A DNA stretch of 44,526 bases from an uncultured Verrucomicrobia subdivision 3 bacterium (GTDB lineage: Bacteria > Verrucomicrobiota > Verrucomicrobiia > Limisphaerales > UBA11358). This document shows positions 5,526-18,786 of this stretch, piece after piece (position 1 is the stretch's first letter; each line of letters starts with the position of its first letter). The notes beneath the pieces are model-generated. The model was given only the letters and a program-made list of their open reading frames with translations, was not told the DNA's origin and did not search any database. Where the stretch lies: the NCBI GenBank assembly GCA_903870815.1, contig CAIQEI010000053.1, positions 1 to 44,526 on the forward strand, given 5' to 3'. The position numbers and the translations under genes are program-made.

Positions 5526-5589
5526 GAAGGGTTGAAGGGTTGAAGGGTTGAAGGGTTGAAGGGTTGAAGGGTTAAAACGTTAAAGCGTT
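5526..5589. repeat. tandem array of the 8-base unit GAAGGGTT
   Basis: Six perfect units (5526-5573) are followed by two decayed ones (AAAACGTT, AAAGCGTT). The same unit forms the array at 16346-16394, so this unit is amplified at two separate loci. Arrays like this often vary in copy number by slippage. Confidence 0.85.
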
Positions 5590-5842
5590 GAAGCGGCCGC
5601 TAAAGCGGGCCAACTTTTGGGTGTCAGGTCATGATGTTACTTTTTGATACCATTTGATACTTTTTGTGCCTTTTTGATACCCCATTTTTAAAATGCCGAA
5701 AACTGACAAAAAGTAACATGGGGCCATGTATTAACCTCAGAGTCAAAGAGTTAGAACCCGGTTTTGGAAACTAGTTTCAAAATTCACCGCGAACATCGAA
5801 CGCTGAACATCGAATGATGTTAAAGGTTGGCGGGTGGGGTAG

Positions 5843-6532: not shown

Positions 6533-9500
6533 TCAGGGCTGCTGGCGGTTTCCCGGCAGCACTACGTTGGTAAATTCCACGGTGCGGATGGGGCGCGTGC
6601 CGATGATGAATTTCACCACATCGGCCAGCGGGACATCGAAAACAAAACTTTCCACGCGTACACCAGATCCGCCGGATATTCCGCCAGTGCTGCCACCGGA
6701 CGCTTTCAGCTCGCGTCCGTCTTTGGTCACCACCAATGCACCGAATTTCCGCTGCTTCAATTTGCCGGCATCTACCGCAATGGCCACGAAAGCGTTGCCG
6801 TCCACATTCTGACCCACGCCGTTCAGCTGGCTGCCACCCTCCAAACTCATCACGGTGGAACTGTTTGGCGTAACGGGAACGTCTTGCGTATTCTCCAGCG
6901 GTCCGGCGGTGTAGCGCAATCGCACGGTAACGCGAGGCGGGATGTTTGTGCCCGCGCCCGGACTCAAGGTTTCCACCTGCCAGCCGAGGTTGCCGTCGTT
7001 TTCATTGGCTTCCTGCTGGCTGCAGGACAGGGAGCCGCCGGCAGCGAGCGGAATGGCTTGGTTCTGGTCATCCAGCAAGGTGATCTCACCCAGACTGTTC
7101 CCGTCAAAAGCAGGATGCGAGAACCAGAGCTTCAGGAAACGCGGCTCGGGCGACAATTTCAAACTGCTCACGTCCATGCCACCAGCCGAGACGACATCGA
7201 GCCATTTCAATTCCGTAGCGGCTGTGACCGGCGAGCCGTCGGGATGCCGAGCCGCGCCGGGTTGGTTGGTTTCCCATTCATCCTGCCACGCGAGGAATTG
7301 CAGCTTGGGCGGTTCTTTTTGGAAAAATTGTTTTGCCTCTAAGTCTCGCATCGAATTGGTGACCGTGAATAAGTAACTGGAAAACCATTGATGCCCGTTG
7401 GTCGTCCAAATCACTATGTTTGAATAGGCAATCATGGCGTCGCCATACCGACCCAGTTGTCTGAGGGCGTTTCCCTTGGCCAGCCACACCAATCCGGGAT
7501 ATTCCTTCACATAATCGGAGCCGTTGGTTTCGATCTGGGAGATGATTTCCAAAGCCCCGCGGGCATGGCCGGAACTATTTAAGATGTGGGCAAGCTGAAG
7601 CTGCTGACCAGGGTCTTGTTTTAATTCTGGAAAAGCCTGAAACATAAAATCGTAAATTTTCAAGGCATTGGTGTTACGCTGATTTACATACTCACGGATG
7701 GCGCTCTTGAAAAGGAAATCGGAAAATTGGGAACGCGAGGCCGCATTGGTCGGCCAGTCAAGACCAATCGCCGGTTCGCCTTGAAACCGCGCGCTTGCGC
7801 CGTCGGATTGCACCAGCTTGTAGCGGAGCTTCACGCCGCGCGGGTTCTCGGTGAAGCCGGTGAGTTGCAGGAGGCCTATGGCACCTTCGCGGGTTTGAAT
7901 TGACAAAACGAAAGGCAGGTTCAAAGGCTCCGGCAGCAGGTAAGACACTTCGGCCAGCTCAATGTGTTCAGGATGCGTGAGCCTTGTTCCATACTGAAGC
8001 GATTCGGTGACCTCGGCTGCATTAGCCTTTTCCCAACGCTCCGCAGGGATGTCTCCCAGGCGCAGCCCGCCGGCGGTCAATATCCAATGACCGGTTTCCT
8101 TGGTGACAAGCAAGGCTAGCCCATTTGTAAGCATCCACATTTGCTGACCGATCCGGTCAACGGGGGGAAGCGAAAGTAGTTCTCCGGTCTGGAAACGGAT
8201 TGCCACGTTTTGATTATTAACATTCAAGTCATTCACCACCCGTTCGATCACCGGGCCGAAGGAAAGCTCGGGTGCGGCGGCGGACGAGGCGGACATTGGC
8301 GGCGTGGATTGAATTCCGCCGCCGGAATCTTTCACCGTCACCGTTGTCCGGTGGCCGGGTTGGAGCGAGACGTTGCGGAACTCGGCCCACTGATACTTGC
8401 GGCGCTGCAATTGGAATTCCTTGATGTGCTCAAAGGCATCGGACGAGAACATCAGCAGTCCACTCGTTGTCGGAAGCTTGGCTGCGTGGGCTGAGATTTC
8501 CGGGATTACGGTGAGCTTGCCGTCGGCAGCCACGCAGACCATCCGCGACTCCCAGTCTTCGTTTTTGGTGTAAGTGCAACTCACCGCCACCTCGCTGCTC
8601 TTGCCGGACACGGCTTGGTAAGACGCGCTCCAATCACCTCCCGATGATGCCCCGCCTCCCAAACCAGAATGCACTGAGACGGCGGTTTCCCACGGGCCGT
8701 TGGCGATGCCAACGGAAATATTCATCGTCGCGGCGTTGCTCGGGCAAACGATGATCTGGCCGAGATAGCCGTTGGGCGTTGGCTGGTCCGGAACAGCCCA
8801 GCAGGAACTGGCGGGTTGCGCGCCCGATTCCTTACTGACGCGGCAAACCGGAGAAGAAATACCTTCCGCGCTTTCGTTGCGGATGTAAAATGCCACTTTT
8901 CTGATTTCGTTGTCCGCTGACCACTGGCTTACATTGCAGTTTCTGGTTGGGAACGGTTCGTTGGATGGCGCGCCGTTGGGCAGCCAGCAAACGGGATTCG
9001 TCCACGGCAGATTGCCGATGGCCACGAGTTCCACTTCCGCTTGGTTCAACCGCGCCACGAACGGTGGACCGTTCAATGCACGCGCTCGAGCATCGCCCAG
9101 CGGGTTAGCAACGATTTGATCAATCGTTGAAAGCTGATGATGAACATTCAAGCCCATGAAAACCGCGTATAAAACAAGGAATGCAATTGCAAGTATGGTA
9201 GTAAGCCTCCACCCCAAGGACGTTTTTTTTTCAGTTTGAGCCTCGTTACCTCGGCTGCTACTAGCATCGGCAGGCGGGACGGCGGTGCTGTCCTTGTTCA
9301 CCGCGCGCCAGACGCGGCGAATGATGAAAAAGTCCACCAATGCAATGGAGGCGAGCGCCAGAAAAACCCAAATGGTGAGATCCCACGGATTAAGGAACAG
9401 TGAGTCCTGAAGACTGAGAACTTGACGGGCAAACAGCTTTGCAAGCACCAGCCACAACCAAGCCATCACTCCGTCCAGCACCAACAGCGGGTAAAACAAG

Positions 9501-11221
9501 CCGTCGAACACCGCCAGCCACATTCCGTATAGTTTTCCTGACGCGCGGCGGATTTGCACAACCGCAATCCAGCCGAAAAGTGTGGTGCCACCTGCTCCCC
9601 ACAGTCCACCGAAACCCATCAAGAGGAAGAAAGCAATTTGCCGCGCAACAATCGGCGCATTCCCACTCGATTTGCCTAGGCTCAACACGACAGAATACCA
9701 CAGCGGCCACGACAGAAACAGGAATAGAAACGCCATGCAAGCCCCCACGACCGCCGTGCGCGAGAAGCGCGATTCAATTGCGGATTGCGGATTGGGGATT
9801 GCGGAATTTTCAGTTTGAGCCTCCTCACGTCGGCTGCTACCCGGTGAAGTAGTGCCAGCCATTTTTTCTTTGCGGAGACGGAAAAGCAGTTCCAACAAGG
9901 TGACCAACATGAGAATGGCAAAGCATGAATTCCAAATGCTCCAGGCTATGCTGCCCTTTGTTCCGTAAACCAACAGAATAATCATCGCACACACCATGAC
10001 CACCCAACTCTTATCAATGATGCGCGTAAACGGAGTGAGGGGCAAAGCCAGCGGGTTTGAAAAACTCGGACGCAACCCGCTTTCTGGCTTCTGACTCCTT
10101 GATTCTCCTTTCCCGCTTTTAGTTTGAGACTCGTCACCTCGTCTCCTACTGGCATCGGGGGTGGCTACGATGGTTTCCACCATGGTTTTTACTTCGCTGA
10201 CTTGCTGGTAGCGGAGTTCGGGTTTCTTTTCCAACGCGCGCAGGACCACTTCGTCGAGGCGCACGTCGATTTGAACTTTCGTCGACGGTGCTTCGAGGCG
10301 TTTACCGGGCAGTTCGCCGGTGAGCATCTGGTAGAACACCACACCCAGCGCGTAGATGTCCGCGCGATGATCCACCTCGCCCGGGGCCTGGATCTGCTCC
10401 GGCGACATGTATTGGGGCGTGCCCAGGACGCGGCCGGCGTCGGTCAGGTCATTGGTTGGCGGGTGCTGCTGCCTGGCTTCGCCCGGACGGCTCGCGGGGA
10501 CGCTCGCCCCACCGTCATTGCCGACAATCTTGGCCAGGCCGAAATCCGCCACCTTCACGCGGCCGCGGCGGTCGAGCAAGATGTTCTCCGGCTTGATGTC
10601 GCGGTGGACGATGCCCTGGTCGTGGGCGAATTGGAGCGCGTCGCAGATCTGCGGGACGATGGCCAACGCCTCGCGCGCGGACACGCGGCCGCCCGCGAGC
10701 AACTGGCGCAGGTTGACGCCGTCCACGAATTCCATGAGGAAGAAATAGAGTTGGGTCTGGCGTCTGGCGTCTGGCGTCTGGGGTGTAGCGGCGGGCATCC
10801 TGCCTGCCGCCACGCCAAACTCGTACAGCGTGACGATGCCGGGATGATTCAGTTTGGCGAGCGCCTTGGCCTCGCGCGTGAAGCGTTCGGCAAACGCCGG
10901 ATCATCGCCGATGCCGGGCGGCAGGATTTTCAGGGCAACGATGCGGTCGAGCTGTATCTGTCGCGCCTTGTAAACCGCGCCCATGCCGCCCTTGCCGATG
11001 AGTTCGAAAATTTCCAATTGGGGAAACAGCGGCGCGAGTTCGGCGACGCCCGGCGGATTGAACGCCGGCTGCCTGGCCTCCGTGACAGTATCCGCCGCCG
11101 CCCCCATTTTGAGCAGGCAGACAGGGCAAAGGCCGGCGAGGGCGCCGGTGGGGAGCGGCGTGCCACATTGCGGGCATTGGTTCGGTTCGGGCATTGGCTG
11201 GTCAATTTTTACCGTGTCCAT
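6533..11221 (-). CDS. large membrane-spanning serine/threonine protein kinase
   Basis: The 1562-residue protein begins with a zinc ribbon (CPQC near 16-19, CPVC near 32-35). A Pknb-type kinase domain follows (about 71-350): GKGGMGAVYKARQ, Lys98 in VALKIL, HRDIKPENILL with Asp208, DFGLAK with Asp226, and GTPQYMSPEQ. About seven hydrophobic helices lie at 404-691. The long C-terminal part (about 700-1562), probably extracytoplasmic, has a helical TPR-like stretch (NALKIYDFMFQAF ... GRYGDAMIAYSNIV) and ends VEFTNVVLPGNRQQP. All catalytic motifs are intact, so it should phosphorylate Ser/Thr on unknown targets, perhaps tuning the sigma factor at 4464-5207. Five low-complexity inserts match dispersed repeats: residues 138-157 and 238-256 inside the kinase domain, and 357-383, 459-484 and 650-668 in linkers. 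I chose ATG 11221; a GTG lies two codons upstream. Confidence 0.9.
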   Translation of the reverse strand: MDTVKIDQPMPEPNQCPQCGTPLPTGALAGLCPVCLLKMGAAADTVTEARQPAFNPPGVAELAPLFPQLEIFELIGKGGMGAVYKARQIQLDRIVALKILPPGIGDDPAFAERFTREAKALAKLNHPGIVTLYEFGVAAGRMPAATPQTPDARRQTQLYFFLMEFVDGVNLRQLLAGGRVSAREALAIVPQICDALQFAHDQGIVHRDIKPENILLDRRGRVKVADFGLAKIVGNDGGASVPASRPGEARQQHPPTNDLTDAGRVLGTPQYMSPEQIQAPGEVDHRADIYALGVVFYQMLTGELPGKRLEAPSTKVQIDVRLDEVVLRALEKKPELRYQQVSEVKTMVETIVATPDASRRRGDESQTKSGKGESRSQKPESGLRPSFSNPLALPLTPFTRIIDKSWVVMVCAMIILLVYGTKGSIAWSIWNSCFAILMLVTLLELLFRLRKEKMAGTTSPGSSRREEAQTENSAIPNPQSAIESRFSRTAVVGACMAFLFLFLSWPLWYSVVLSLGKSSGNAPIVARQIAFFLLMGFGGLWGAGGTTLFGWIAVVQIRRASGKLYGMWLAVFDGLFYPLLVLDGVMAWLWLVLAKLFARQVLSLQDSLFLNPWDLTIWVFLALASIALVDFFIIRRVWRAVNKDSTAVPPADASSSRGNEAQTEKKTSLGWRLTTILAIAFLVLYAVFMGLNVHHQLSTIDQIVANPLGDARARALNGPPFVARLNQAEVELVAIGNLPWTNPVCWLPNGAPSNEPFPTRNCNVSQWSADNEIRKVAFYIRNESAEGISSPVCRVSKESGAQPASSCWAVPDQPTPNGYLGQIIVCPSNAATMNISVGIANGPWETAVSVHSGLGGGASSGGDWSASYQAVSGKSSEVAVSCTYTKNEDWESRMVCVAADGKLTVIPEISAHAAKLPTTSGLLMFSSDAFEHIKEFQLQRRKYQWAEFRNVSLQPGHRTTVTVKDSGGGIQSTPPMSASSAAAPELSFGPVIERVVNDLNVNNQNVAIRFQTGELLSLPPVDRIGQQMWMLTNGLALLVTKETGHWILTAGGLRLGDIPAERWEKANAAEVTESLQYGTRLTHPEHIELAEVSYLLPEPLNLPFVLSIQTREGAIGLLQLTGFTENPRGVKLRYKLVQSDGASARFQGEPAIGLDWPTNAASRSQFSDFLFKSAIREYVNQRNTNALKIYDFMFQAFPELKQDPGQQLQLAHILNSSGHARGALEIISQIETNGSDYVKEYPGLVWLAKGNALRQLGRYGDAMIAYSNIVIWTTNGHQWFSSYLFTVTNSMRDLEAKQFFQKEPPKLQFLAWQDEWETNQPGAARHPDGSPVTAATELKWLDVVSAGGMDVSSLKLSPEPRFLKLWFSHPAFDGNSLGEITLLDDQNQAIPLAAGGSLSCSQQEANENDGNLGWQVETLSPGAGTNIPPRVTVRLRYTAGPLENTQDVPVTPNSSTVMSLEGGSQLNGVGQNVDGNAFVAIAVDAGKLKQRKFGALVVTKDGRELKASGGSTGGISGGSGVRVESFVFDVPLADVVKFIIGTRPIRTVEFTNVVLPGNRQQP
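9218..9274 (-). repeat. repeat-derived insert 5 in kinase gene (residues about 650-668)
   Basis: Encodes ADASSSRGNEAQTEKKTS in the linker before the last predicted membrane helix. The DNA (CAGTTTGAGCCTCGTTACCT and onward) is a diverged copy of the motif that also encodes inserts 3 and 4, read in the same frame each time. Confidence 0.65.
9770..9847 (-). repeat. repeat-derived insert 4 in kinase gene (residues about 459-484)
   Basis: Encodes SPGSSRREEAQTENSAIPN and onward, combining a copy of the CAGTTTGAGCCTC motif (9811-9842) with an 'attgcggattgcggattgg' tandem (9778-9808). It sits in a loop between membrane helices. Confidence 0.65.
10073..10153 (-). repeat. repeat-derived insert 3 in kinase gene (residues about 357-383)
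   Basis: Encodes ASRRRGDESQTKSGKGE and onward, just after the kinase domain. Bases 10126-10149 are identical over 24 positions to 25060-25083, which lies in a non-coding leader. This is the strongest direct evidence that an intergenic repeat entered the reading frame. Confidence 0.75.
10454..10510 (-). repeat. repeat-derived insert 2 inside the kinase domain (residues about 238-256)
   Basis: Encodes GASVPASRPGEARQQHPPT between the DFG motif and the GTPQYMSPEQ segment, that is, in the activation-loop region. Bases 10488-10513 match one arm of the intergenic inverted repeat at 23239-23264 at 25 of 26 positions. Confidence 0.75.
10751..10810 (-). repeat. repeat-like insert 1 inside the kinase domain (residues about 138-157)
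   Basis: Encodes AAGRMPAATPQTPDARRQTQ between LYEFGV and LYFFLMEFVDG, at the hinge between kinase lobes. The DNA combines a near-palindrome (GCGGCGGGCATCCTGCCTGC and onward) with tandem GTCTGGC units. No second copy of the exact palindrome occurs in this window, so its repeat nature rests on composition and position. Confidence 0.55.
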
Positions 11222-11269
11222 GCCCACATCAGAAGCAAAACCGGCGGATCGTTACCGGAAATTTTTTTT

Positions 11270-11372
11270 GGGGAACATTCAACATTGAACATTCAACGCC
11301 GAACGTCGAAGGGCATCAGCCGCAGTTCCATTGGGAATTCGCTGTTGAATGTTGAGCGTTGAATGTTTCTTC
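11270..11372. repeat. 'AACATTCAAC' repeat cluster, inverted arrangement
   Basis: Runs such as ACATTCAACATTGAACATTC on the left are mirrored by TGTTGAATGTTGAGCGTTGA on the right, so the 103-base stretch can fold on itself. Similar text recurs at 5789-5816, 6078-6125, 13467-13530, 16396-16484 and 29908-29942. It fills the spacer between the UbiA-like gene and the kinase gene. Confidence 0.7.
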
Positions 11373-11377
11373 CCAAC

Positions 11378-12295
11378 TCATCGCAGCTTGAAGCCGCCCT
11401 GGAAAATCACTTCCACTGCGACGATGACCAAAAAAATGATGCCGACGAGGGCGTTTAACCGGAAGAAGGCGAGGTTGATCCAGTTCAGGCTGCGGCGCCG
11501 CGCGATCCAATGCTCCAGCACGAGGCAGGCGAGAATAATGAGCCAGCCAATGAGATAGGCGAGGCGGAACCGGCAAAGCAACCCGAAGCCCAGCAGCACG
11601 CCGCACATCGCCATGTGCGCGAGGAACGCCGCGCCCAAGGCGTTCTTTGGTCCCCAAGCCACGACGAGCGAGCGGAGTCCGTGCGACTGGTCGAACTCGT
11701 AATCTTGCAGCGCGTAAATGATATCGAAGCCGACCAGCCAAAGCACGACAGCGAACGCGAGCAGCGTCATTTGCAGCATTTCCAGCGGCGAGACATTGCC
11801 ACCCTTCACCGCCAGCCACGCGCCGATGGGCGAGAGCGCGAGGGCGATGCCCAGAAAAACGTGCGTGTAATCCGTGAACCGCTTGGTCAGCGAATAAAAA
11901 CACACCAAAACCAGAGCCACGGGCGAAAGATAGAAGCACAGCGGATTGAGAAAATAGCTCGCGGCCATCAAACCGGCGGCCGAGAGGGCGCACAACAAAA
12001 TGGCACCCGACAAGGAAACCTGTCCGCTCGGCAGATGGCGGTTTTTGGTGCGCGGATTCAGCGCGTCGAATTTCCGGTCCACAATCCGATTGAAGGCCAT
12101 GGCGCAAGTTCGCGCGCAAACCATGGCCGCCAAAATCAGCCCGAACGTTTTCCAACCGGGCCAGCCGCGATGGTCCCGCGCGGCCACGAGCATAGCCGCC
12201 AGCGCGAAGGGAAGCGCGAAGATGGTGTGCGAGAAGCGCACAAAGCTGCCCCATTTCCGCAGCGAGCATAGAGGATTGAAGGTGGAAGATGGCAT
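11378..12295 (-). CDS. UbiA-family polyprenyltransferase (menaquinone/ubiquinone type, MqnP-like)
   Basis: An integral membrane enzyme of 305 residues that attaches a polyprenyl chain to an aromatic acid. It shows the two aspartate-rich motifs of the superfamily, NRIVDRKFDALNPRTKNR (about 69-86) and DIIYALQDYEFDQSHGLRS, which bind Mg-prenyl diphosphate, plus about eight hydrophobic helices. It is close to a UbiX-family gene on the same strand, separated only by a four-helix-bundle gene. That pairing fits the late steps of the futalosine menaquinone pathway (MqnP with UbiX/UbiD-type partners); 4-hydroxybenzoate prenylation is the alternative. The N-terminal MPSSTFNPLC residues are encoded by a dispersed 'ccatcctccacc'-type repeat; the conserved part starts at about KWGSFVRFSHTIFALPF, and no better start lies in between. 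Confidence 0.85.
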   Translation of the reverse strand: MPSSTFNPLCSLRKWGSFVRFSHTIFALPFALAAMLVAARDHRGWPGWKTFGLILAAMVCARTCAMAFNRIVDRKFDALNPRTKNRHLPSGQVSLSGAILLCALSAAGLMAASYFLNPLCFYLSPVALVLVCFYSLTKRFTDYTHVFLGIALALSPIGAWLAVKGGNVSPLEMLQMTLLAFAVVLWLVGFDIIYALQDYEFDQSHGLRSLVVAWGPKNALGAAFLAHMAMCGVLLGFGLLCRFRLAYLIGWLIILACLVLEHWIARRRSLNWINLAFFRLNALVGIIFLVIVAVEVIFQGGFKLR

Positions 12296-12318
12296 CGAGG
12301 AAAAGTGAGAATGCGCGG

Positions 12319-12337
12319 ATTGATGATAGAGGATGGA
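12319..12337 (+). repeat. 19-base repeat ATTGATGATAGAGGATGGA, copy 1
   Basis: Identical to 14864-14882. This copy abuts the stop codon of the first four-helix-bundle gene (12338-12340); the other lies upstream of the second such gene. Confidence 0.8.
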
Positions 12338-12730
12338 TCAGAGATCAGTTTTTTTTGTTCCGCAAAAATCATCAGCCTTGAGAATCATGCTGGCAATCAT
12401 GCCGCCGACAGATTGCCACGCCGCATCAAAATCCTTGTGTTGAGCCGGGCTGATATAACCGCAATCCAGCGCATCATCCAACCACGATTGAGTCTCATTC
12501 GCCTCGCCTATGGCATCGGTAAGTTTGCTGGCAAACGAGGCTGGATAGCGGCGATGCCCCCACGCTTCCGCAATCATGGATTTAACCGCCCGCGATGAGC
12601 GACGAATCTGGTCGGTCATAGCAAACTTTTCTTCCTTCGGAAATGTCTTGGTGGCCTCAAAAATCCGGCCGGCCTCGCTGCGAGCCTGTTGATAAGACCG
12701 CAAGTCACGAAAACTTCTGATGATTGCCAT
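12338..12730 (-). CDS. four-helix bundle protein (S23/IVS-type), copy 1
   Basis: A 130-residue helical protein with the family hallmarks: FRDLRSYQQARSEAGRIFEATKTFP, EEKFAMTDQIRRSSRAVKSMIAEAW, and KLTDAIGEANETQSWLDDALDCGYI. This family was first met inside intervening sequences of 23S rRNA genes and is also common as free-standing genes in environmental bacteria; its function is unknown. It is more than half identical to the protein at 14919-15305. The ATG at 12730 fits the family start (MAIIRSFRDL matches MALIKSFRDL). The gene interrupts what would otherwise be a UbiX-UbiA pair and is bordered by 'catcctc/gaggatgg' repeats on both sides, suggesting it arrived as a small cassette. Confidence 0.88.
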   Translation of the reverse strand: MAIIRSFRDLRSYQQARSEAGRIFEATKTFPKEEKFAMTDQIRRSSRAVKSMIAEAWGHRRYPASFASKLTDAIGEANETQSWLDDALDCGYISPAQHKDFDAAWQSVGGMIASMILKADDFCGTKKTDL

Positions 12731-12788
12731 AGTAAAATTGACGCATTCTGAATCTGCCATCCTCAATCGTCCACCCTCCATCCTCGCC

Positions 12789-13346
12789 TCACTCCCGTTC
12801 CTCCGACCAGCGGGGGGCGATTTGGTTGGGCAGGCCGATGTGGTCCAGGACCCGGGCCACCACGGTGTCCACCAGCTCGACGATGGTTTTTGCGCCGGAA
12901 TAAAAACTCGGGTTGGCCGGGATCAGGGTCGCGCCGGCCAGCAGCAGGAGTTCCATGTTTTTCACCTGGATCAGGTTCAACGGCGTTTCGCGCGGAACCA
13001 GGATCAACTTTTTCTTTTCCTTCAGCACGACGTCGGCGGCGCGCTGCAGCACGTCCTCGCTATAGCCGTGCGCGATGCGGCCCATCGTGCCCATCGTGCA
13101 GGGAATGACCACCATGACGTCCGGCGGATTCGAGCCGCTGGCGAAGGGCGCATTCATGCTTTTCAGGCCGTGCGGCTTCACGCCGGCGGGCAGGCGCAGT
13201 CCGCCGGGCAGTTCCTCGGCGACGACCTGCTGCGCGTAATGGCTCAGCACGACGTGGATTTGGTGTTCGCGCGGGTCCAGGTTGTCGAGCAGCCGCTGCG
13301 CGTACAGCGCGCCGCTGGCTCCAGTGATGGCGACGAGTATTTTCAA
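12789..13346 (-). CDS. ubiX: UbiX-family flavin prenyltransferase
   Basis: The 185-residue protein makes prenylated FMN, the cofactor of UbiD-type decarboxylases, from FMN and dimethylallyl phosphate. Visible motifs are VAITGASGALYAQRLLDNL (FMN-binding loop), VVIPCTMGTMGRIAHGYS, and KKKLILVPRETPLNLIQVKN with the conserved Arg-Glu pair. The family start falls at LKILVAITGASG, where the codon is TTG (13346), so I take TTG as the start; longer frames extend into repeat DNA ('gatttacgatttacgatttt') and encode no conserved residues. With the UbiA-like gene next door it probably serves quinone biosynthesis. The partner UbiD is not in the window. Confidence 0.88.
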   Translation of the reverse strand: MKILVAITGASGALYAQRLLDNLDPREHQIHVVLSHYAQQVVAEELPGGLRLPAGVKPHGLKSMNAPFASGSNPPDVMVVIPCTMGTMGRIAHGYSEDVLQRAADVVLKEKKKLILVPRETPLNLIQVKNMELLLLAGATLIPANPSFYSGAKTIVELVDTVVARVLDHIGLPNQIAPRWSEERE

Positions 13347-13399
13347 GCGAGGGAAAGATAACGCGGCGGAGACTCCGCGGCAATTAGAACAGGCAAGGC

Positions 13400-13769
13400 G
13401 GGGGGATTTACGATTTACGATTTTCGATTTACGATTTGCTAAGTGGCGGGATGAAGTTAAAGGGTTGAACAACGAACAACGAACATCGAAACGTTCAACA
13501 TTCAACATTCAACACCGAACACCGAACTGGGGACCCCCCTGACCCGGACAGGCAAGATGCGATGTCCTACTTTGGCGGCGCGGTGCCGATTGCAAATCGG
13601 CGATACGGCAGATTAAAAATCTGCGCTACGACGGCTGGCGGTAAGAACCGGGTCAAGGTACACCGGTGGTCGGGTCACGATTTACGATTTTGGATCGATG
13701 CAACCGATCCTGGTTCGGGCGTAAATTGAATGGGCTTGTGTCCGCGTTTCGCTTCCGCACAATTGGCGG
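13400..13769. other. gene-free repeat stretch between ubiX and the amidase gene
   Basis: It contains 'gatttacgatttacgatttt' runs (about 13406-13437, echoed at about 13677-13690), an AACATTCAAC cluster (13467-13530), the phrase GGACAGGCAAGATGCG (about 13548-13563, repeated near 16504-16519), and a pair of small palindromes, GATTGCAAATC and CAGATTAAAAATCTG (about 13588-13625). These genes diverge here, so promoters for both must lie in this stretch, but none is clear. Confidence 0.6.
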
Positions 13770-14849
13770 GTGTTCAAACTGGCGGGAATCATCTTTGGCG
13801 GCATGCTGCTGCTGGCGGGCTGCACCGGCGTTTATCAAGGCTCCGAATCGCAACCACCGCCGCACGAATGGGCATTGACGACCAACGTCGTTGTCCCGCC
13901 GCCGCCCCGGGGGAACGCGCCGGTTGTCCGAACCATTCCGCCACCCGCAAAGATACCCCGGCCCGCCCCCGTCTTCACATGGACTTCGCTAGACCGTTGG
14001 GCGGCGGAAAACCGGCTGGCCGCGCCGCGCAAAATCCCGGATTCGCCGGTGGCCAGCTATGCCGTCAGTTCGCGGCAAGGCACGATAGTGCTGGAAATCG
14101 GCAGCCGCGAGGCGACCTGGAACGGCATCGAGCTGCACCTCGGATTCGCGCCGGAGATCATTGACGACCAGGTCTTCATCCACGGCCTCGACCTGCAAAA
14201 ACACCTGGAACCACTGCTGTTCGGCGAACCGCTCGGGTTCGGCACCAACCGCGTCATCGTGATTGATCCCGGCCACGGCGGATCGAATGTCGGCACGCAC
14301 AGCGTGCGCGACGGACGGCTGGAAAAAGAGTTCACGCTGGACTGGGCGCTACGACTCAAGCCGCGGCTCGAAACCAACGGCTGGAAAGTTTTTCTGACGC
14401 GCACCGGCGACACTGCCATGACCAACGCCAACCGCGTCGTGTTTGCCGAAGCGCATCACGCGGACGTGTTCATCAGTTTGCACTTCAACTCCGCCGCCCC
14501 GGACACAAGACCCGCCGGGCTGGAAACGTATTGTTTTACGCCCACCGGGATGCCGTCAACGGTGACGCGCGGCTATGCCGATCCCTGGCCGGAAAAACTA
14601 TCGAGCAACGATTTTGACGACCAGAATTTAAAGCTGGCCTTAAAATTGCAAGGGGCACTGCTGCGCGCCACCGGCATGGAAGACCGGGGCGTGCGGCACG
14701 TACGATATATAGAAGTCTTGCGCGGACAAAAACGGCCAGCTGTGCTGATCGAAGGCGGCTACCTTTCCAATCCGAAAGAGGCGGAAAAGATTGAAAACCC
14801 CGAGTATCGCGAACGGCTTGCGGAAGCGGTCGCAACTGCGTTGCGCTAA
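13770..14849 (+). CDS. N-acetylmuramoyl-L-alanine amidase, lipoprotein
   Basis: A 359-residue zinc amidase (Amidase_3 family) that cleaves the MurNAc-L-Ala bond of peptidoglycan. The N-terminus is a lipoprotein signal (GMLLLAGC, lipidated Cys18), followed by a proline-rich linker, a small beta domain (about 73-150) and the catalytic domain: VIVIDPGHGG with His169, LEKEFTLDWA with Glu185, VFISLHFNS with His238, and a C-terminal VLIEGGYLSNPKE carrying the catalytic Glu. It would act in the periplasm, anchored to a membrane. The start codon is GTG (13770), needed to keep the whole signal peptide. It is divergent from ubiX and followed by the second four-helix-bundle gene. Confidence 0.93.
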   Translation: MFKLAGIIFGGMLLLAGCTGVYQGSESQPPPHEWALTTNVVVPPPPRGNAPVVRTIPPPAKIPRPAPVFTWTSLDRWAAENRLAAPRKIPDSPVASYAVSSRQGTIVLEIGSREATWNGIELHLGFAPEIIDDQVFIHGLDLQKHLEPLLFGEPLGFGTNRVIVIDPGHGGSNVGTHSVRDGRLEKEFTLDWALRLKPRLETNGWKVFLTRTGDTAMTNANRVVFAEAHHADVFISLHFNSAAPDTRPAGLETYCFTPTGMPSTVTRGYADPWPEKLSSNDFDDQNLKLALKLQGALLRATGMEDRGVRHVRYIEVLRGQKRPAVLIEGGYLSNPKEAEKIENPEYRERLAEAVATALR

Positions 14850-14863
14850 CACGAAAATGGAGA

Positions 14864-14882
14864 ATTGATGATAGAGGATGGA
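14864..14882 (+). repeat. 19-base repeat ATTGATGATAGAGGATGGA, copy 2
   Basis: A perfect match to 12319-12337. It lies 36 bases before the second four-helix-bundle gene and 14 bases after the amidase stop. Confidence 0.8.
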
Positions 14883-14918
14883 ACGAACCAAGCGAAGTTT
14901 GTGAATGCAGGATAAAAT

Positions 14919-15305
14919 ATGGCGCTCATTAAAAGTTTTCGGGATTTGAATGTGTATCAGGCCGCAGGCGCGGAGAACCAGAAGATTTATGTTCGCAGCC
15001 GAAGTTTTCCCGCTGAAGAAAAATATTCCTTAACCGACCAAATCCGGCGCTCCTCGCGCGCGGTCAAGGCCATGGTTGCCGAAGCGTGGGGGCGACGCCG
15101 CTATCGCGCCGTGTTCATCAACAAGATTGACGAAGCACTGGGCGAAGCGACGGAAACGCAGTCGCGGCTTGATGACTGCCTTGATTGCAGCTACATCCCG
15201 GCGGACGAATTCAAACAAATGAACGCCGCCTGGCAAAGCATCGGCGCCAGGCTCATCAAAATGATCATCCGAGCCGACGATTTTTGCGGCACCCAAACCG
15301 AATAA
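14919..15305 (+). CDS. four-helix bundle protein (S23/IVS-type), copy 2
   Basis: A 128-residue paralog of the protein at 12338-12730. The conserved blocks are again present: MALIKSFRDLNVYQAAGAEN, LTDQIRRSSRAVKAMVAEAW, KIDEALGEATETQSRLDDCLD and a shared IRADDFCGT tail. Function is unknown. It stands between the amidase and the epimerase, with 'gaggatgg' text upstream and 'catcctccacccgcc' text downstream, the same kind of borders as copy 1 in the opposite orientation. Two paralogs 2 kb apart in matching repeat surroundings suggest local duplication or repeated insertion of a cassette. Confidence 0.88.
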   Translation: MALIKSFRDLNVYQAAGAENQKIYVRSRSFPAEEKYSLTDQIRRSSRAVKAMVAEAWGRRRYRAVFINKIDEALGEATETQSRLDDCLDCSYIPADEFKQMNAAWQSIGARLIKMIIRADDFCGTQTE

Positions 15306-15326
15306 TCCATCCCTGACTTTACCATC

Positions 15327-16355
15327 ATGCCATCCTCCACCCGCCATCCGCTATCCCCGTTTGTCCTCGTCACTGGCGGCGCGGGTTTTATCGGCTCGCA
15401 TCTGGTGGAGCGATTGCTGGACGACGGCAAAAGCGTCGTGGTGATTGACGATCTTTCCACCGGCAGCCGGGACAATCTGCGCGCGGTGGCGCAGCACAAG
15501 AATTTCCGCTTCATCCAATCAAAAATATCCGCCTACGCCGAACTGCCGGAACTGGCGGAGGCGGCGGAATTCATCTACCACCTCGCCGCAACGGTAGGCG
15601 TGGAACTGGTCGTGAAATCCGCGCTGCACGTACTCGAAGCGAGTTTCAGCGAGACGCAGATGCTGCTGCGCGCCGCCGCGAAACATTCCACGCCACTGCT
15701 GCTGACCTCGACCTCGGAGGTGTACGGCAAAAGCGCCAAGCCGGAGTTCGGCGAAGACGACGACCTGCTGATCGGGCCGCCCGGGCAATCGCGCTGGAGC
15801 TACGCCTGCTCCAAGCTCACGGACGAATTTCTCGCCCTCGCCTACGCGCGCGAGAAAAACCTGCCGGTCATCATCGCACGGCTATTCAACACGGTCGGCC
15901 CGCGCCAGACCGGACGCTACGGCATGGTGCTGCCGCGCTTCATCGCGGCGGCGAAGGCGGGGGAGCCGCTGAAAGTTTTTGGCGACGGCGCGCAATCGCG
16001 CTGCTTCGGCCTGGTCCACGACGTGGTGGAGGCGCTCGTGCGCCTGCAGCATAGCGAGGCGGCGCGGGGCGAGATTTTCAACATCGGCGGCACGGAAGAG
16101 ATTTCGATCGGGGAACTGGCGAAGCTCGTGGTCGACACGCTCGGCTCCCAATCGACAATCGAACGAGTGCCCTACGACCAGGCCTATCCGGCGGCGCCCC
16201 TCGGCGGCGGCGTGACGGGCGCGCCCGGCTTTGATGACATGCGCCGGCGCAAGCCGCGCGTGGACAAGCTGGAAAGCGCCGTGAACTTCAAGCCGCAGAC
16301 ACCGCTGCGCGAAATCATCCGGCTGACGGCGGGGGCAAAATTGTTGAAGGGGTGA
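15327..16355 (+). CDS. NAD-dependent nucleotide-sugar epimerase/dehydratase
   Basis: The 342-residue extended short-chain dehydrogenase has the NAD-binding loop TGGAGFIGSHL (about 16-26), LLLTSTSEVYGKS, and the catalytic WSYACSK (Tyr159, Lys163), followed by RLFNTVGPRQTGRYGMVLPRF. It resembles UDP-glucuronate decarboxylase, GDP-mannose dehydratase and related enzymes that make sugar nucleotides for cell-surface glycans; the exact substrate cannot be read from the sequence. The first residues, MPSSTRHPLS, are encoded by a dispersed 'ccatcctccacccgcc' repeat, as in the UbiA-like gene. The stop codon (16353-16355) falls inside a GAAGGGTT tandem array, so both ends of the frame were shaped by repeats. 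Confidence 0.88.
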   Translation: MPSSTRHPLSPFVLVTGGAGFIGSHLVERLLDDGKSVVVIDDLSTGSRDNLRAVAQHKNFRFIQSKISAYAELPELAEAAEFIYHLAATVGVELVVKSALHVLEASFSETQMLLRAAAKHSTPLLLTSTSEVYGKSAKPEFGEDDDLLIGPPGQSRWSYACSKLTDEFLALAYAREKNLPVIIARLFNTVGPRQTGRYGMVLPRFIAAAKAGEPLKVFGDGAQSRCFGLVHDVVEALVRLQHSEAARGEIFNIGGTEEISIGELAKLVVDTLGSQSTIERVPYDQAYPAAPLGGGVTGAPGFDDMRRRKPRVDKLESAVNFKPQTPLREIIRLTAGAKLLKG

Positions 16356-16394
16356 AGGGTTGAAGGGTTGAAGGGTTGAAGGGGTGAAGAGGGT
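16346..16394. repeat. second GAAGGGTT tandem array, overlapping the epimerase stop
   Basis: About six units of GAAGGGTT or GAAGGGGT follow one another. The unit is the same as at 5526-5589. The first GAAGGGGTGA provides the final Lys-Gly codons and the TGA stop of the epimerase. Confidence 0.8.
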
Positions 16395-16395
16395 G

Positions 16396-16484
16396 AAGCG
16401 AACATCGAACATCGAATTAAAAACCGGAGGTGAAGGACGGGACCGAAACATTCAATGCTCAACATTCAACTTCGAACATTAAAC
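16396..16484. repeat. 'GAACATCGAAC/ACATTCAAC' repeat cluster before dprA
   Basis: GCGAACATCGAACATCGAAT and CATTCAATGCTCAACATTCA runs match the style of the clusters at 5789, 6078, 11270 and 13467. The spacer continues with 'ggaatgcggaaatcctggac' (also near 6489) and 'ggacaggcaagatgcg' (also near 13548). No gene is seen before dprA. Confidence 0.65.
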
Positions 16485-16584
16485 TAAGGAATGCGGAAAT
16501 CCTGGACAGGCAAGATGCGCGCCGCGGAGCCGACGGCGTAAAACAATTCTTGCCGCGCCGGACGCCAACGATTATCAAAATAGG

Positions 16585-18093: not shown

Positions 18094-18786
18094 ATGGAAT
18101 CGCCGAAACCAATTCGTCGCACCCCGCCGAAGAATGTCGGCCTGCTCGAACTCATTCGCGGTAAACGCGAGTGGGATTGGAAACCATCCATTGCCGAATT
18201 GAAGCAAGGTTTTCGCGGATGGCATCAACGCGGGTTTCTGCCGCACTTCGACGCGCCGGACGTTACGCAATTCGTCACCTTTCAACTTCATGATTCCTTT
18301 CCCGTGACGCGCGGCGCGGAATTTGAAGCGATTTTGAAAGAGCCGGATGATTCCGCGAAGCGCCGGAAGCTTGAAGCGTGGCTGGATCGCGGTCATGGCG
18401 AGTGCTGGCTTCGACGGCGGGACGTAGCGGAACTCGTCGAGAAGGGTTTGCTCTAAGCCGATAGGCGCGATTATCAAATACAGGCGTGGGTGGTCATGCC
18501 GAATCATGTTCATCTGGTCGTGGAGGTTTGGGGCGTGCCGCTGATAAAACTCATAACCGATTGGAAAGGTAAGTCTTCCCGACTGGCGAATCAGCTTCTG
18601 AGACGCCGTGGAAAATTCTGGCAGGAGGATTACTACGACACGCTCATCCGCGACGAAGCGCATTTGAAGCGCGCCATCCGTTACACCGAACAGAATCCCG
18701 TGAAAGCGAATCTGGTAAACGGCGCGCGCGAATGGCCCTGGTGCAGTGCCGGTCATCGTGACGAATACGAGCGCCTGCCGAGGTAG
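18094..18786 (+). pseudogene. REP-associated tyrosine transposase (RAYT), split by an in-frame TAA
   Basis: A single reading frame of 230 residues interrupted at codon 121 by TAA (18454-18456). The first part has the RAYT N-terminal signature WHQRGFLPHFDAPDVTQFVTF and WLDRGHGECWLRRRDVAELV. After the stop the same frame continues ADRRDYQIQAWVVMPNHVHL, the HUH-type metal-binding motif, then GKFWQEDYYDTLIRDEAHLK and RAIRYTEQNPVKANLV, which includes the conserved tyrosine region. RAYTs are single-copy Y1-type transposases thought to move REP/REPIN sequences. Both flanks are REPIN units of equal length. Only the one stop damages the gene, so the loss looks recent, or the site is read through, or it is an assembly error. 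A 98-residue piece could be translated from ATG 18490. Confidence 0.9.

Follow-up and report, generated by a model that had tools for sequence, protein, structure and literature searches.

How did two related genes for four-helix-bundle proteins come to interrupt two neighbouring gene junctions of an uncultured Verrucomicrobia subdivision 3 bacterium? Both genes belong to the S23 family, and both lie within positions 1 to 44,526 of contig CAIQEI010000053.1 (assembly GCA_903870815.1), the whole stretch of DNA that was analysed and that is called the window here. We propose, and give the proposal an even chance of being right, that an S23 gene and the two inverted heptad arrays around it form one palindromic mobile element of ~0.45-0.6 kb, a counterpart in protein operons of those intervening sequences (IVS) of 23S rRNA genes that bear an open reading frame (ORF). 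Short hairpins without a gene would be forms of this element that resemble miniature inverted-repeat transposable elements (MITEs), and entry of the hairpin would be driven by S23. The observations behind the proposal are that the arms are inverted, specific to their locus and periodic at 7 nt, that they are present in some relatives and absent from others, and that they accompany the gene to sites that are unrelated. One S23 lineage was found at two neighbouring junctions, and different S23 lineages as well as gene-less hairpins were found at one and the same junction.

Paired heptad arrays at S23 loci

The genome of the window harbors 11 S23 genes. When all of them were listed with their flanks, as the preliminary description of this DNA had suggested, short-unit arrays were seen to face each other at most of them, the unit usually differing from locus to locus. 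Across the genus, S23 was detected in 45 of 49 genomes, with 264 matches in total and up to 14 per genome. For measurement, 98 loci were taken: the 11 of the window's genome, 29 that the search had returned, and every second further place in the list (58 loci). Three with flanks shorter than 200 nt were dropped, and some of the remaining 95 are orthologous and hence not independent. Arms were scored by comparing the 300 nt on either side of the profile match and taking the best complementarity without gaps (+1/-1.5), with a threshold of 12.

Complementary arms reaching 12 were present at 83 of the 95 loci. In direct orientation 21 of the 95 reached this score, and of 1500 mismatched locus pairs 6.6% did. 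At a score of at least 16 the values were 61 of 95, 14 of 95 and 2.3%, respectively. As a control, 216 ORFs of at least 100 aa from an unselected 274-kb sample of the same genome were assayed with 250-nt flanks; 10 of them reached 12 and two reached 16, one a Y1 transposase gene and the other a GxxExxY gene. The upstream arms are periodic: their self-identity is 0.54 when shifted by 7 nt and 0.51 when shifted by 14 nt, whereas most other lags give ~0.25. The best period was 7 in 76 of 83 arms. From arm to arm the distance was 339-581 nt (median 410, 83 loci). The heptamer itself varies between loci and no terminal sequence is shared; the family-conserved terminal inverted repeats by which MITEs and insertion sequences are recognised were thus not found, the arms being alike only among close S23 relatives. 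We know of no transposon end that keeps complementarity and a 7-nt period while its sequence differs. No rRNA was found around the genes: Rfam gave no match at window positions 11000-16500, and of 96 S23 loci another 20 were searched, all without rRNA. Paired arms also occur around S23 genes on plasmids, where 10 of 12 loci measured (out of 27 matches; 11 cyanobacterial, one from Azospirillum) reached 16. At four of the 12 (L268, L272, L273 and L276) the gene beside S23 is annotated as an integrase or a tyrosine recombinase.

Within the window, gene a (12338-12730, minus strand) and gene b (14919-15305, plus strand) both match PF05635/TIGR02436, with Pfam E-values for PF05635 of 1.6e-26 and 2.5e-23, and are 57-59% identical, confirming the paralogs that had been noticed at these positions. 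Gene a indeed splits a ubiX-ubiA pair, with ubiX (12789-13349, minus) upstream and ubiA (11378-12295, minus) downstream. Gene b stands between an N-acetylmuramoyl-L-alanine amidase gene upstream (13770-14849, plus) and a NAD-dependent epimerase-like gene downstream (15327-16355, plus); the latter was named by reading its sequence alone, the other three host genes by Pfam. The best arms of gene a measure 33 nt each and score 13.0, above the threshold: GAGGATG heptads upstream (12755-12787, minus; the array proper, CCATCCT, at 12757-12785) and CATCCTC heptads downstream (12262-12294, minus), which overlap the first codons of the annotated ubiA. Downstream of gene b, GCCATCC heptads at 15329-15356 (plus) encode the N-terminus of the next protein. 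Both arrays extend into the start of the following gene, where UbiA begins with MPSSTFNPL and the epimerase with MPSSTRHPL.

Junctions in relatives and the proposed joint movement of gene and arms

Both junctions were compared in relatives. Among 30 amidase-epimerase loci, 18 showed a stop/start overlap (17 ATGA, 1 GTGA), two contained S23 (the window's genome and G005), one (L172) contained a gene-less perfect hairpin of 15 nt, eight had other short spacers and in one the epimerase was out of reach. By eye, a possible 7-nt repeat, ATGAAAC, was seen at the hairpin of L172, as a candidate target duplication. Since most relatives are empty at this site, the presence of S23 is most simply read as a gain. 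The preliminary description would have given up its idea of a moving cassette had both genes stood at unchanged positions in every relative, with non-repetitive flanks. This is not so, with S23 in 2 of 30 loci and overlaps in 18 of 30 here, and with the lineage of the window in 5 of 72 ubiX-ubiA junctions and 21 of these empty.

For ubiX-ubiA, 110 loci (80 from named metagenome-assembled genomes (MAGs), 30 from the genus) were reduced to 72 distinct junctions by excluding duplicates and loci without a reachable ubiA. Pairs without the gene, which the preliminary description had proposed to look for, accounted for 21 of the 72, and the S23 lineage of the window for five; 26 junctions held gene-less spacers, 14 a second S23 lineage, three an ankyrin gene and three other ORFs. 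The second lineage mostly carries AACATCG-type arms, and its member at L085 was checked (TIGR02436, E 1.5e-21). Hairpins reaching 12 were detected in 4 of 5 junctions with the window lineage, in 14 of 14 with the second lineage and in 14 of 26 gene-less spacers; none was detected in the 21 empty junctions, the three with ankyrin or the three with other ORFs, and shuffled gene-less spacers reached this score in 0 of 520 cases. On a combined UbiX and UbiA tree, obtained by a quick method and with many weak forks, at least 31 content changes were needed compared with a shuffled mean of 38.9, gains and losses not being separated. The small ankyrin-repeat gene occurs in L056, L058 and L107 without paired arms of at least 12; its family was checked in L056, where the gene overlaps the ubiX stop.

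Five genomes have the S23 lineage of the window at ubiX-ubiA, and four have it at amidase-epimerase, namely at gene b, at L229 and, as assigned by flanking text, at L080 and L115. On the S23 tree the two sites interleave: gene a pairs with L229 (87/82), and two ubiX-ubiA genes group with gene b (98/95), from which it follows that the window pair is not a simple local duplication. The earlier suggestion of a small cassette that occupies varying sites without a transposase of its own agrees with the presence and absence of this lineage at both junctions, and the sole ORF in the loop of the S23 elements is S23 itself; the Y1 gene at 18430-18744 of the window lies outside.

To relate arms to genes, the 83 armed loci were paired and the pairs divided by homology of their flanks. 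Among pairs at different sites, similar arms became more frequent as S23 identity rose, from 1% below 0.4 to 4% at 0.4-0.5, 14% at 0.5-0.6, 54% at 0.6-0.7 (n=35) and 70% at 0.7 or above (n=20), while reversed arms, used as control, were similar in 0-9%. Arm similarity tracks the gene rather than the site. At orthologous sites with an S23 identity of 0.5-0.7 (n=12), an arm matched its own partner with 18.8 and the arm of the orthologue with 9.4, indicating that both ends change together.

Gene-less hairpins and other genes in hairpins

Heptad arrays also occur without an S23 gene. In the window, a hairpin of AACATTC/GAATGTT heptads lies between ubiA and a kinase gene (11274-11367; arms 11274-11303 and 11338-11367, 83% complementary, 34-nt loop). 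An inverted partner within 700 nt was found for 16 of 39 heptad arrays. Per 100 kb, 9.8, 7.9 and 5.0 arrays were counted in genomes with 11, 14 and 14 S23 genes, 2.5 in a genome with one, and 0, 0.6, 0 and 4.9 in four genomes with none. A strict count of good heptad hairpins, which was too insensitive, gave two in 274 kb, one in 164 kb and none in three other samples.

Locus L263 of the window's genome (G000, contig C147, 17825-17900) has a GAGGATG hairpin without a gene that is read in frame as part of a recG-like gene, in place of the usual RecG loop text. The kinase-like ORF of the window (6533-11227) likewise has heptad arrays in its coding text, at 9777-9805 (ATTGCGG, encoding AIPNPQSAIES) and at 10755-10781 (GTCTGGC, encoding ATPQTPDARRQ). 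Direct arrays of 8-nt units (GAAGGGTT and TGAAGGGG) are present at 5526-5593 and 16343-16398, unlike the 7-nt arrays around them.

A second gene family was found in hairpins of similar appearance. Of 30 loci in the genus (L279-L308) encoding the GxxExxY protein, a PD-(D/E)XK nuclease (PF13366), one was dropped for a short flank; all 29 others had arms reaching 12 and 26 of 29 reached 16, compared with 13 and 12 in direct orientation and with 11.6% and 4.8% of mismatched pairs. These hairpins are again locus-specific, with best lags of 8 (11 loci), 9 (7), 12 (4) and others, and 7 only once. Among 1000 ORFs of at least 80 aa, sampled from eight genomes, nine had paired flanks of at least 15: three GxxExxY genes, two Y1 transposases, one DUF559 gene and three seemingly unrelated ORFs, the family being checked for one GxxExxY, the DUF559 and both Y1 genes. 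At L342 (1192-1575), a DUF559 nuclease-like gene is flanked by complementary G-rich arms. It is possible, although on balance we doubt it, that these cases belong to one general class of palindromic mobile elements with a single gene each, in which pairing and the repeat period, and not the sequence, mark the ends for recognition. The class would comprise S23 (7-nt units), the GxxExxY nuclease (8- to 12-nt units) and perhaps DUF559, each with gene-less offspring and each moved by its small protein through hairpin nucleic acid, and ribosomal IVS would be its members dwelling in rRNA.

Movement, competing explanations and known relatives

An S23 element would enter its site as a hairpin, most likely of single-stranded DNA, via host replication or repair and without a sequence-specific transposase. 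This route would explain why pairing and period are retained at the ends although the sequence is not, and also why a target duplication is missing. The S23 protein may act on nucleic-acid hairpins, in cis on those made by its own arms and in trans on those without a gene; a structure, 2rld, has been solved for a relative. From an operon transcript the gene could be folded out between the paired ends, as in rRNA. Other modes were considered and rejected: classical transposition, as there are neither direct repeats of at least 6 nt outside the arms nor conserved ends; retro-movement by an own reverse transcriptase, as PF00078 had no match in the genome of the window; and selection on arm pairing at the RNA level, as the arm mismatches (72 G.T, 81 A.C) showed no G-U wobble bias on the sense RNA. 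Intragenomic bursts were dropped because none was found among 97 same-genome pairs, and a role as a defence system because PADLOC gave no match.

Several observations weigh against a mobile hairpin driven by S23. A direct repeat of at least 6 nt within 12 nt outside the arms was found at 0 of 83 loci. The best arm pair of gene b, with 12 nt and a score of 9.5, stays below the threshold of 12, and the RNA folds of both window elements were not better than those of shuffles (z -0.9 and -1.1). Movement between close strains was not seen, and none of the 97 same-genome S23 pairs exceeded an identity of 0.56, giving no sign of recent copying inside one genome; fewer than two such pairs would be expected from the 55 of 3226 different-site, different-genome pairs at 0.6 or above, so this absence is no evidence either way. 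G035, a MAG that is 79% complete, has the 4.9 arrays per 100 kb given above and no S23 by two models, and heptad arrays were therefore abandoned as a strict marker of S23. The arms of the plasmid loci have units of 8-9 nt in 7 of 10 cases, and they resemble one another, 11% of mismatched pairs reaching 16. The period of 7 is hence not fixed for the protein family, and the heptad was given up as a property of S23 everywhere.

The number of S23 genes further correlates with that of Y1 genes (Spearman 0.56, p 3e-5), uncorrected for phylogeny, as is the correlation of 0.41 between S23 and GxxExxY. This also speaks for the strongest competitor, in which S23 hairpins are non-autonomous passengers moved in trans by a resident hairpin-recognising transposase, for instance a Y1 transposase, that is, a tyrosine transposase associated with repetitive extragenic palindromes (REP), with S23 as cargo or helper. 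Y1 genes are present in 44 of 49 genomes, and a match to one with an internal stop codon, probably a broken copy, lies at 18430-18744 of the window, 3 kb from gene b. However, four genomes have S23 but no Y1 match and three have Y1 but no S23, a Y1 gene of the window's genome (L250) has long ends of its own without heptads, and S23 arms share no common sequence by which they could be recognised. We regard this explanation as rather unlikely and infer that hairpin movement driven by S23 leads, with mobilisation in trans by Y1 in second place.

Alternatively, the S23 gene could be a resident whose arms were made or homogenised in place by slippage and template switching at inverted repeats, without any mobile element. 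Tandem heptads can slip, both arms change together at orthologous sites, and many arrays are unpaired, with a partner in only the 16 of 39 mentioned. Yet relatives have empty sites, similar genes carry similar arms at unrelated sites, control genes are mostly armless (the above 10 of 216) and ankyrin and other genes at the ubiX-ubiA junction lack arms (0 of 6), which makes local origin improbable. More improbable still is a reading in which S23 is inherited vertically and the inverted repeats serve it as terminators or regulatory hairpins. Hairpins are common near gene ends, and at 54 of 98 S23 loci the longest ORFs on both sides are on the same strand, but the arms flank the gene on both sides and pair with each other, each locus has a new unit, and the presence and absence among relatives, with its empty sites, already disfavours this idea.

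The preliminary description had placed the borders elsewhere, in a 19-base repeat, ATTGATGATAGAGGATGGA. This repeat is indeed identical beside both genes (12319-12337 and 14864-14882, plus strand), and the 3.17-Mb genome has no further exact copy. When up to three mismatches are allowed, 12 places match, compared with two for a reversed control pattern, which puts the repeat in a dispersed family of GAGGATG type; it forms part of longer, degenerate arrays of GAGGATG-like heptamers. The first copy is an inner stretch directly after the stop of gene a and, given the arms at 12755-12787 and 12262-12294, falls inside the element, while the second is part of the upstream array of element b. The 'catcctcc/gaggatgg' text described on the other side of the genes was too loose as a motif (CATCCTCC occurs once in the window, equal to chance expectation); present there are the degenerate arrays at 12757-12785 and 15329-15356. 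Movement using the 19-base direct repeat as border has next to no chance of being correct, as the copies are inverted relative to the genes (GAGGATG upstream, CATCCTC downstream) and lie in or inside the inverted heptad arrays that form the actual borders, as most other S23 genes of the genome and those of relatives have other units, and as no direct repeats lie outside the arms.

That the S23 family is known from IVS of 23S rRNA genes, as the preliminary description states, agrees with the accounts in PMC4990558 and PMC11270868. As described in PMC4990558, the IVS of Coxiella has 428-444 nt, a 28-bp stem of terminal inverted repeats and an S23 ORF, and is excised by RNase III; the same source (2016) treats the function and origin of IVS as unclear, and transposition and a need of the ORF for mobility as ideas. 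ORF-less IVS of 83-112 nt are reported in PMC2672173, and S23 proteins in 16S and 23S insertions of bacteria of the candidate phyla radiation (CPR) in PMC11270868. The elements described here likewise have a single S23 ORF between complementary ends, a similar size (~430-450 nt for IVS, a median of 410 nt from arm to arm here) and short ORF-less forms. In contrast, they sit between protein genes and not in rRNA, each locus has heptad arrays of its own unit as arms, and a genome may hold up to 14. As size, ends and protein agree but the place differs, we call them IVS-like, not IVS.

Other systems share single features. Families of Rickettsia palindromic elements are known to have conserved sequences and are not known to carry a gene, whereas the elements of this genus have a gene in the loop and ends that are free in sequence. 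Short palindromes inserted in frame in ORFs are described for Rickettsia in PMC10969869, comparable to the gene-less hairpin in recG. Degenerate heptanucleotide repeats form a hairpin in P6b of the Nostoc tRNA-Leu intron (PMC3488679), but this lies within a group I intron, has no gene and is not described as mobile in the available text of that source. Heptamer arrays between genes are also known as the TAACTGA repeats of Beggiatoaceae and cyanobacteria (PMC4679880); these have a single fixed unit, are direct instead of inverted, and S23 is named nowhere in the available text of that source. The Avd proteins of diversity-generating retroelements belong to a related four-helix-bundle fold family, and weak matches of this type were obtained (NF033474, E 2.8e-5 for gene a; PHROG 3206, E 3e-10), but the NF033474 match is below its curated cut-off and the genome has no reverse transcriptase. 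In the limited literature collection searched, no paper was found to describe S23 genes flanked by inverted heptad arrays at sites other than rRNA.

Taken together, the arm ends deserve attention in themselves, as complementarity and the 7-nt period are kept and the sequence is not, and the arrays change host proteins, to which they contribute N-termini and insertions in frame. With IVS-like elements in ordinary operons, the unexplained movement of IVS becomes testable. In a genus whose 49 genomes hold 264 S23 matches, and which offers empty sites, gene-less forms and a second gene family in look-alike hairpins, IVS mobility turns into a question for both comparative analysis and the bench.

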